A stretch of 64,000 nucleotides of DNA from Mitsuaria chitosanitabida ATCC BAA-476 = NBRC 102408 (GTDB lineage: Bacteria; Pseudomonadota; Gammaproteobacteria; Burkholderiales; Burkholderiaceae_C), in NCBI RefSeq assembly GCF_001598255.1, contig NZ_BCYP01000017.1, positions 62,001 to 126,000 on the forward strand. The letters are read 5' to 3'. How positions within the stretch are numbered: position 1 is the first letter of the stretch; each line of letters begins with the position of its first letter. Shown piece by piece: positions 51,430 through 52,731 of the stretch. The position numbers and the translations under genes were made by a program. A model generated the notes under the pieces. The model had not been told where the DNA came from and ran no database searches. It saw only the letters and a list, made by a program, of their open reading frames with translations.

Positions 51430-52608
51430 TCACAGGCCGGCCGAGGCGCGCAGCGCGGCGGCCTTGTCGGTGCGCTCCCAGCTGAACTCTGGCTCCTCGC
51501 GGCCGAAGTGGCCGTAGGCCGCGGTCTTGCCGTAGATCGGACGCAGCAGGTCCAGCATCTGGATGATGCCCTTGGGACGCAGGTCGAAATGCTCGCGGAC
51601 CAGCGCTTCGATCTTCTCGTCGGCGATCACGCCCGTGCCTTCGGTGTAGACCGTGATGTTCATCGGACGCGCGACGCCGATGGCGTAGGCGACCTGGATC
51701 TGGCACTGCTTGGCCAGGCCGGCGGCCACGATGTTCTTGGCCACGTAGCGCGCGGCGTAGGCGGCCGAGCGGTCGACCTTGGTCGGATCCTTGCCGGAGA
51801 ACGCGCCGCCGCCGTGCGGGCAGGCGCCGCCATAGGTGTCGACGATGATCTTGCGGCCGGTCAGGCCGCAGTCGCCCTGCGGGCCGCCGATGACGAAGCG
51901 GCCGGTCGGGTTGACCAGGTACTTCGTGTCCTGCAGCCACTCCTTGGGGAGCACCGGCTTGATGATCTCCTCGATGACGGCCTCGTAGAACTCGGGCTTC
52001 ATCTTGTCGCCCAGCGACATCTCGGGCGAGTGCTGCGTCGACAGCACGACGGTGTCGATGCTGTGCGGCTTGCCGTCGACGTAGCGCATCGTGACCTGGC
52101 TCTTCGCGTCGGGGCGGAGGAAGGGGAGGCGGCCGTCCTTGCGCAGCTGGGCCTGGCGCTCGACGAGGCGGTGGGCGTAGTAGATCGGGGCCGGCATCAG
52201 CTCCGGCGTCTCGTCACAGGCGTAGCCGAACATCAGGCCCTGGTCACCGGCGCCGGTGTTCAGGTGGTCGTCGGACGCCTGATCCACCCCTTGCGCGATG
52301 TCGTTGCTCTGCTTGTCGTAGGCGACCAGCACCGCGCAACCCTTGTAGTCGATGCCGTACTCGGTGTTGTCGTAGCCGATGCGCTTGATCGTGTCGCGGG
52401 CGACCTGGATGTAGTCGACGTGGGCGTTCGTGGTGATCTCGCCGGCCAGCACCACCAGTCCGGTGTTGCACAGCGTCTCGGCGGCCACGCGCGAGCGCGG
52501 GTCCTGTGCCAGGATCGCGTCGAGGATGGCGTCGGAAATCTGGTCGGCCACCTTGTCCGGATGACCTTCGGAGACGGATTCCGAGGTGAAGAGGAAATCG
52601 CTCGCCAA
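51430..52608 (-). CDS. metK: S-adenosylmethionine synthetase
   Basis: A 392-residue enzyme making SAM from methionine and ATP. Family motifs: '[20 protein letters not shown]', '[21 protein letters not shown]', '[16 protein letters not shown]' and '[15 protein letters not shown]'. The start is an unusual TTG at 52608 (reads MASDFLF...); AGGAG lies 6 bases upstream and no in-frame ATG/GTG precedes it with this spacing, so TTG is the only sensible start. Rare start codons can limit translation of a dosage-sensitive enzyme. Confidence 0.97.
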
Positions 52609-52664
52609 TTTAAACTCCTGTGGTTCTACGGGCGTTGCCGTGTCTGGGAGTCAGGCGGCGAACG

Positions 52665-52718
52665 CTTTAGCGGGATTTATGAGTCGCCCCGCAAGTTGTC
52701 CAAATTAACTCGGCGACA
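52665..52718 (-). promoter_or_regulatory. metK leader with SAM-II/SAM-V-like elements
   Basis: On the minus strand the leader reads, in order: stem strand GTCGCC (52717-52712), TTAATTTGG, CTTGC, the complementary stem strand GGCGAC (52688-52683), then CATAAAT (about 52681-52675) and GCTAAAG (52671-52665). The order P1 - ATTT - TTGC - P1' - ATAAAT - GCTAAA is that of the SAM-II aptamer family. The second helix of that fold is only weakly supported here (GG..AAC with GTT..CC). The position, right after a strong promoter and before metK, suits a SAM sensor. Confidence 0.5.
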
Positions 52719-52725
52719 GGGGCGC

Positions 52726-52731
52726 ATTATA
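52726..52731 (-). promoter_or_regulatory. -10 element of metK
   Basis: Minus-strand TATAAT, a perfect consensus. The predicted transcript start, about 7 bases downstream, coincides with the first stem of the structured leader. The -35 region is unclear. Confidence 0.65.

Follow-up and report, generated by a model that had tools for sequence, protein, structure and literature searches.

The metK leader in the window, the whole stretch of 64,000 nucleotides that was analyzed, is a real, conserved SAM-II-type riboswitch candidate and a variant that falls below the Rfam threshold. We consider it likely that the leader is a SAM-II-type H-pseudoknot aptamer through which SAM turns metK off by translational, anti-Shine-Dalgarno control. 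Bacteria with this element probably lower SAM production when SAM is plentiful, since the leader structure resembles a known SAM sensor.

The metK leader element and its conservation

The metK gene starts with TTG at 52608 on the minus strand and is divergent from dapF and from a lipid A lauroyl acyltransferase-like gene, whose matches stayed below curated cut-offs. The SAM-II-like element runs on the minus strand from 52717 to 52665 and reads GTCGCC-GAGTTAATTTGGACAA-CTTGC-GG-GGCGAC-TCATAAATCCC-GCTAAAG, with an A-rich strand joining the P1 3' strand to GCTAAAG (Table 1). The initial annotation, which had pointed to this element from the letters alone, was right about its coordinates, its letters and the perfect P1 stem GTCGCC/GGCGAC of six pairs. 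Downstream, GCGTT (52665-52661) overlaps the P2a 3' strand and is complementary to the P3 loop AACGC, and the probable anti-Shine-Dalgarno segment follows P2a at a distance of 7 nt.

Table 1. Coordinates of metK and of the predicted elements of its leader
Feature	Coordinates	Strand	Basis
metK, methionine adenosyltransferase, TTG start	51430..52608	-	TIGR01034, 591 bits (cut-off 309.4)
Shine-Dalgarno GGAGTTT	52612..52618	-	Sequence; GGAG ends 6 nt before the TTG start
P3 hairpin ACGG-CAACGC-CCGT, AACGC in loop	52628..52641	-	Stem and loop statistics in family leaders
Probable anti-Shine-Dalgarno segment GACTCC	52647..52652	-	6-nt complementarity to Shine-Dalgarno and permutation test
P2a 3' strand GTTC	52660..52663	-	Covariation, 55-sequence alignment
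P2b 3' strand and predicted ligand pocket GCTAAAG	52665..52671	-	Invariant in 55-sequence alignment
P1 3' strand GGCGAC	52683..52688	-	Covariation, 55-sequence alignment
P2b 5' strand CTTGC	52691..52695	-	Invariant in 55-sequence alignment
P2a 5' strand GGAC	52698..52701	-	Pairs with 52660-52663, one G-U; covariation
L1 third strand GAGTTA	52706..52711	-	Counts in 111 matched leaders; position mapping by our own alignment
P1 5' strand GTCGCC	52712..52717	-	Six pairs with 52683-52688
-10 box TATAAT (perfect)	52726..52731	-	Sequence and match upstream of P1 in relatives

The perfect TATAAT at 52731-52726 places the predicted metK transcription start near 52719, right at P1, in agreement with the earlier proposal. 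A -10 match of at least 5/6 was present upstream of P1 in 106 of the 111 matched metK leaders described below (mean score 5.25, versus 3.00 in shuffled sequences). The box ended 6 nt before P1 in 68 of these leaders, the gap in the own leader being 8 nt. No promoter with a -35 match was found in the own metK leader.

Conservation was analyzed in 159 genomes, including 16 of the genus, in which metK was located by protein; 149 leader loci were fetched. The order-level sample comprised 63 genomes with 52 fetched leaders, and some of the remaining leaders lay at the very end of a contig. The second metK match of each of two family genomes, G061 and G063, lay outside the leader sample. The pattern GAGTT..CTTGC..GCTAAAG was found in 87 of the first 90 leader loci, and two of the three misses differed by one change. 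A relaxed pattern, which required GCTAAAGC and [CA]TTGC and allowed only G or T at the variable place of the third strand, matched 111/149 leader loci. These included 96 of the 97 loci of the window's family, corresponding to 96/96 family genomes, and 15/52 loci outside the family, spread over 11 families, with the other 37/52 lacking the element. The covariance model gave 0 matches in the 38 pattern-negative leaders. Genome G058 contained two metK copies, one with the leader element (L169) and one without it (L054).

A pattern scan of titled genome contigs gave at least 120 stretches. Among the matches listed were the genera Achromobacter, Bordetella, Burkholderia, Paraburkholderia, Cupriavidus, Ralstonia, Pandoraea, Variovorax, Roseateles, and Dechloromonas. 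In 117 of the 120 listed loci, metK starts 76-168 nt after the pattern, and the other 3 reach the sequence end; in a first set of 80 of these loci, which includes the same 3, the distance was 76-166 nt in 77. One contig titled Akkermansia muciniphila (L265, MAG) carried a betaproteobacterial metK leader together with metK and is probably mis-binned.

Covariation of the pseudoknot and matches to riboswitch families

Covariation was analyzed in an alignment (A1) of 55 short-insert leaders, drawn from 107 distinct aptamers after removal of 6 near-duplicates and of 46 aptamers that had long inserts (or a long L1). In the 55 leaders, the 14 pairs of P1, P2a, and P2b were formed in 98.7% of cells, and slid structures paired in 39-42%. 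Cells changed on both sides numbered 38 versus a shuffle mean of 9.9, and the covariation score was 0.205 versus 0.122 in shuffled alignments, with 0/500 shuffles as high in either measure. The number of pairs with a double change (5 versus 3.3 shuffled, with 46/500 shuffles reaching 5) and the number of further pair types (11 versus 9.8; 98/500 shuffles) were not outstanding.

The 6-bp P1 was paired in 98.8% of cells of the 55 leaders, with double changes in three of its six pairs and an outer pair that was G-C, A-U, or U-A. The second helix had been regarded as the weak point of the element, a view that the covariation of P2a in the 55 leaders contradicts. P2a was paired in 97.3% of cells. 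Of its four pairs, two had double-sided changes, one had single-sided changes and one was invariant. One pair occurred as A-U, G-U, and G-C and another as G-C, A-U, C-G, and U-G (4 unpaired). The P2a types were GAAC/GTTC, GGAC/GTTC, GAGC/GTTC, AGAC/GTCT, and CGAC/GTCG. Two further P2a types were CAAC/GTTG, in a second element of the own genome, and AAAC/GTTT, in a metK leader from a different order of the same class. At least three consecutive P2a pairs were counted by eye in 109/111 matched leaders, L122 and L124 being the exceptions. P2b never varies and therefore says nothing by itself on covariation. Both the P1 stem expected of SAM-II and its P2 pseudoknot from L1 to the 3' tail (P2b plus P2a) were found. 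In 46 of the 107 distinct metK aptamers, extra sequence was present, mostly between the P1 3' strand and GCTAAAG (examples are L063, L083, and L168), and some of that in the long-insert aptamers apparently forms hairpins.

The Rfam family SAM_alpha (SAM-II, RF00521) has a gathering cut-off of 36 bits. In a cmscan of the whole window at gathering thresholds, nothing was found in the metK leader. The only match in the window was the SAH riboswitch RF01057 (40420-40518, minus strand, 50.9 bits), which bears out a side remark of the initial annotation on an SAH switch. At a relaxed threshold, SAM_alpha matched the metK leader over its full length on the same strand with 14.2 bits (E 0.53 across 4227 families), a weak match taken alone, and was slightly outscored in the same search by mir-200 (16.8 bits, E 0.46). 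The mir-200 and mir-7948 matches were taken as chance, both microRNA families scoring far below their cut-offs. The resemblance to SAM-II or SAM-V claimed at the outset was recovered for SAM_alpha, below the cut-off (14.2 versus 36 bits), and was not recovered for SAM-V. Two of the outcomes that would have spoken against the initial annotation, a second helix without covariation and the lack of a match to both models, were looked for, and neither was observed, so that its interpretation is supported.

The own leader and 20 relatives' leaders, taken from 60 fetched, gave no match at E up to 10 to SAM-V (RF01826) or SAM/SAH (RF01727). SAM-II long loops (RF01726) had no match in the own leader or the same 20 leaders, long-insert ones included, and all three were rejected as the family of the element. 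SAM_alpha was matched in 6/20 relatives' leaders with 15.9-24.2 bits, none reaching the cut-off, and among the matches listed, five metK-linked SAM_alpha matches paired by position had 22.8-26.8 bits. Nested folding of the element was no better than that of shuffled sequences (z +1.19; 179/200 shuffles fold at least as well), a measure that is uninformative here because nested folding cannot see a pseudoknot.

A covariance model (R1) was built from metK leaders alone, with the own leader as row 1 of the training alignment. In the own genome, it scored 80.9 bits at metK, which is partly by construction because this is a training sequence, 51.9 at a second locus, 24.2 at metX, and then 13.5. The model refound all 30 fetched family loci above the SAM_alpha cut-off (30/30) at the same positions with E 0.0028 or better. 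It had matches in 167/200 genomes of the order (E up to 0.1) and in 105/229 genomes of the class sample (E up to 0.01). Among nine class loci, three lay before a MetZ-like protein (by eye), one before MetK, and three contained tandem elements. In most tandems, a GATTTG element came first and a GAGTTA or GATTTA element second; SAM-II tandems that mix platforms have been described before (PMC9481103).

Probable expression platform, predicted ligand pocket and alternative readings

No terminator was found in the own metK leader. With a crude detector that skipped elements with long inserts or less than 90 nt of downstream sequence, a terminator-like signal was present in 1/51 metK elements versus 7/30 SAM_alpha-search elements. 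Among later model matches, it was present in 11/14 GATTTG, 1/19 GAGTTA, and 2/8 GATTTA elements.

A Shine-Dalgarno sequence was found in 107/111 leaders, and 101 distinct loci were used for a pairing permutation. The post-aptamer segment paired with its own Shine-Dalgarno at -9.12 versus -8.11 kcal/mol with swapped ones in the 101 loci, at -9.02 versus -8.26 in 88 family loci, and at -9.79 versus -7.78 in 13 loci of other families, with 0/1000 permutations as low in each set. The own pairing beat the row mean in 69/101 loci, the permutations ignoring the relatedness of the sequences. Control is probably translational, because the post-aptamer segment covaries with the Shine-Dalgarno. The P3 loop motif (AA, AG or GA, then CGC), which is able to pair with GCGUU and is located between the post-aptamer segment and the Shine-Dalgarno, was present in 80/96 family leaders, with about 5% expected by chance. 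The P3 stem in family leaders had an own mean of 3.77 bp versus 3.30 with swapped 3' sides (0/500 as high).

In the proposed mechanism, P1, P2b (CUUGC/GCUAAAG), and P2a (GGAC/GUUC) would form around SAM at the 5' end of the metK mRNA, with SAM sitting against U52669 and the U52693:A52668.U52708 triple. Binding of SAM would fix GUUC in P2a, and GUUC held there would keep GCGUU from the AACGC loop of the downstream hairpin. The neighboring anti-Shine-Dalgarno GACUCC would be freed to cover the Shine-Dalgarno GGAGUUU, and metK translation would fall at high SAM. We infer that the ligand is SAM, that control runs in the OFF direction, and that GCGUU:AACGC acts as an antiswitch; for the direction, the main grounds are physiology and the behavior of known SAM-II and SAM-V switches. 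Translational SAM-II control has been described for metA in Sinorhizobium (PMC9373788). Nested folding of the ON and OFF states counted against this switching model. In 104/111 leaders, blocking the P2 strands left mean Shine-Dalgarno accessibility unchanged (0.131 free versus 0.135 blocked); it was lower with the P2 strands blocked in 38/104 leaders, and the alternative pairing had a probability above 0.5 in only 10/104.

The third strand in the 111 matched metK leaders was GAGTTA in 106, GTGTTA in 1, GATTTA in 3, and GGTTTA in 1, so that the place of the third-strand U was G in 107 and T in four. The three leaders with GATTTA were from other families. GATTTG was present in 30/30 elements scanned from SAM_alpha-search loci. 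Of the three U residues in the SAM-II third strand (GAUUU), the own GAGUU keeps two. The GCUAAA and UUGC pocket residues of SAM-II were present in the own leader and invariant in the 55 aligned leaders, and no family genome failed the search pattern that required the pocket. The metK leader was not filed as a plain member of RF00521 because of its Rfam score and the missing third-strand U.

In the SAM-V structure, the contacts of SAM are U47, which U8 also touches, A50, which is itself in contact with A18, and the base triple U20:A48.U9. The structure contains a second triple, U19:A49.U10, and SAM-II is said to bind SAM virtually identically (PMC6061858). By our own alignment, U52669, A52668, A52667, and A52666 would correspond to SAM-V U47, A48, A49, and A50. 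The triples U20:A48.U9 and U19:A49.U10 would map to U52693:A52668.U52708 and U52694:A52667.U52707, respectively. On the same mapping, A52666 would stand opposite C52695 in place of A18, and G52709 would take the position of U8, the residue in contact with the adenine-binding U47. Compared with SAM-II, the only difference is at U8, since C at the A18 place is the SAM_alpha consensus letter (CUUGC). The third-strand G could still donate a hydrogen bond to U47, and the SAM affinity of the G-type pocket may differ from that of the U-type.

A tentative extension of these results, which we hold to be possible though on balance doubtful, is a metK-dedicated SAM-II branch with a third-strand G, an anti-Shine-Dalgarno platform, and changed SAM affinity or selectivity, working beside the U-type metX switch in the same genomes. 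If this is true, the SAM level at which methionine synthesis stops differs from the level at which SAM synthesis stops, and some genomes hold G-type and U-type elements in tandem before other genes. It is rather unlikely that the SAM-II fold has changed its ligand or affinity so as to sense SAM only at high concentration, or to sense SAH or another SAM-cycle compound. The predominance of GAGTTA in metK leaders versus GATTTG in SAM_alpha-search elements would fit such a change, as would SAM-I variants that bind spermidine (PMC10853860). Against it, the leader keeps the counterparts of U9 and U20, which face the sulfonium, as well as those of U10, U47, A48, A49, and A50, the downstream gene makes SAM, and three metK leaders of other families retain GATTTA. 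An opposite direction of control, in which the SAM-bound pseudoknot turns metK on because P2a removes GUUC from a hairpin where GUUCGCC covers the start codon, appears improbable. The segment GCGUUCGCC is also complementary to the start-codon region and prefers its own in the 88 family loci, with a small effect (-14.03 versus -13.86 swapped; 0/1000), and the start-codon hairpin occurs in the minimum-energy folds of some relatives (L062, L070, and L088). Within the family, this pairing could reflect a coupling of another kind or of opposite direction. No such preference was seen in the 13 loci from other families (492/1000; 480/1000), and start-codon pairing was rejected as a general mechanism; we also know of no physiological sense in a SAM synthetase activated by its product.

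That the leader is a conserved element other than a riboswitch, such as a site bound by a protein or a cis-acting element through which MetK regulates itself, with no more than a resemblance to SAM-II, is likewise improbable. Extreme sequence conservation with short helices and the weak Rfam score would agree with such a site, but the pseudoknot helices covary and the models match SAM-II elements in both directions. Chance resemblance in a GC-rich leader could draw on single-sequence statistics only, namely, E 0.53 and the lack of nested stability. It is refuted by conservation, which covers 96/96 family genomes and representatives of 11 other families; the presence of the element in all 96 family genomes examined also raises the SAM_alpha resemblance above chance.

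Related riboswitches and further elements

The SAM-II-type reading of the metK leader was compared with known systems. With SAM-II (RF00521), the leader shares the P1/P2 H-pseudoknot, the CUUGC and GCUAAAG core, the pocket residues, an A-rich L3, and covariance models that match both ways. It differs in the score below the Rfam gathering cut-off, the third-strand U replaced by G, the anti-Shine-Dalgarno platform, and the long inserts in some relatives. It also lies before metK, whereas the SAM-II genes named in the cited passages are metX, metY, metZ, and metA (PMC4239095 and PMC9373788). SAM-V (RF01826) has the same SAM-binding core and a translational mode (PMC6061858). In contrast to SAM-V, the Shine-Dalgarno of the metK leader is not in P2a, whose 3' strand ends at 52660 while the Shine-Dalgarno begins at 52618, and no helix was seen at the place of the SAM-V P3. 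The SAM/SAH riboswitch (RF01727) is likewise an H-pseudoknot (PMC7367207) upstream of metK (PMC2864571) but was found in Rhodobacterales (PMC2864571) and has no Rfam match here. SAM-II long loops (RF01726) is named among the motifs in PMC2864571, where an expansion of SAM-II is mentioned, and is listed there for Bacteroidetes and marine sequences.

The metXZ RNA element of beta-proteobacteria (Leyn et al. 2014, PMC4239095) is also a pseudoknot leader of methionine genes but, in the cited passages, is described only before metX/metZ and with a terminator. Judged by the SAM_alpha matches before metX-like genes, which fit its description, the metXZ element is probably SAM-II itself, and we read the metK leader as a second branch of SAM-II beside it. 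The same 2014 survey states that a search for a metK regulator in beta-proteobacteria was unsuccessful (PMC4239095). Among the papers listed in the literature searched, with most subscription papers outside it, none describes a SAM-II element ahead of metK in beta-proteobacteria. The metK leader is a concrete candidate regulator for genera including Burkholderia, Bordetella, Ralstonia, Cupriavidus, and Roseateles, and the Rfam SAM_alpha threshold misses a large branch of SAM-II-type elements. The U-type on metX and the G-type on metK form a natural pair in which to study the effect of one pocket base on the tuning of a SAM sensor.

SAM_alpha elements above the Rfam cut-off were found in 50/200 family genomes, several of them before MetX-like genes (by eye). 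The SAM_alpha copy in the own genome (L001/L226) scored 30.3 bits, below the cut-off, and is followed by an alpha/beta hydrolase-fold protein. The own genome also contains a further SAM-II-like element (L216 2300-2420; G000:C6:305798-305862), with 51.9 bits under the metK-built model, a GATTTA L1, P2a CAAC/GTTG, and CTCCG facing CGGAG. It lies upstream of a 139-aa ORF without a Pfam or NCBIfam match, and a small SRP RNA is located within about 200 nt on the other strand.

Tandem SAM-II-like elements were present upstream of MATE-type transporters in L217, L221, L222, and L223, an unexpected target for SAM control; MatE was assigned by Pfam for L217 only, the other three transporters being recognized by eye. 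A small ORF beginning MYDC came first after the elements in L204/L217, L205, L208, L209, and L221. GAGTTG, GAGTTA, or GATTTA elements were located upstream of AAA/MoxR-like ATPase genes in L194/L220, L195, L230, and L231, with AAA_5 found by Pfam for L220 only and the ATPases of L195, L230, and L231 recognized by eye. In L224, two elements precede an HD-domain gene (HD_4), which is followed by a second, divergent MetK paralogue (Pfam).
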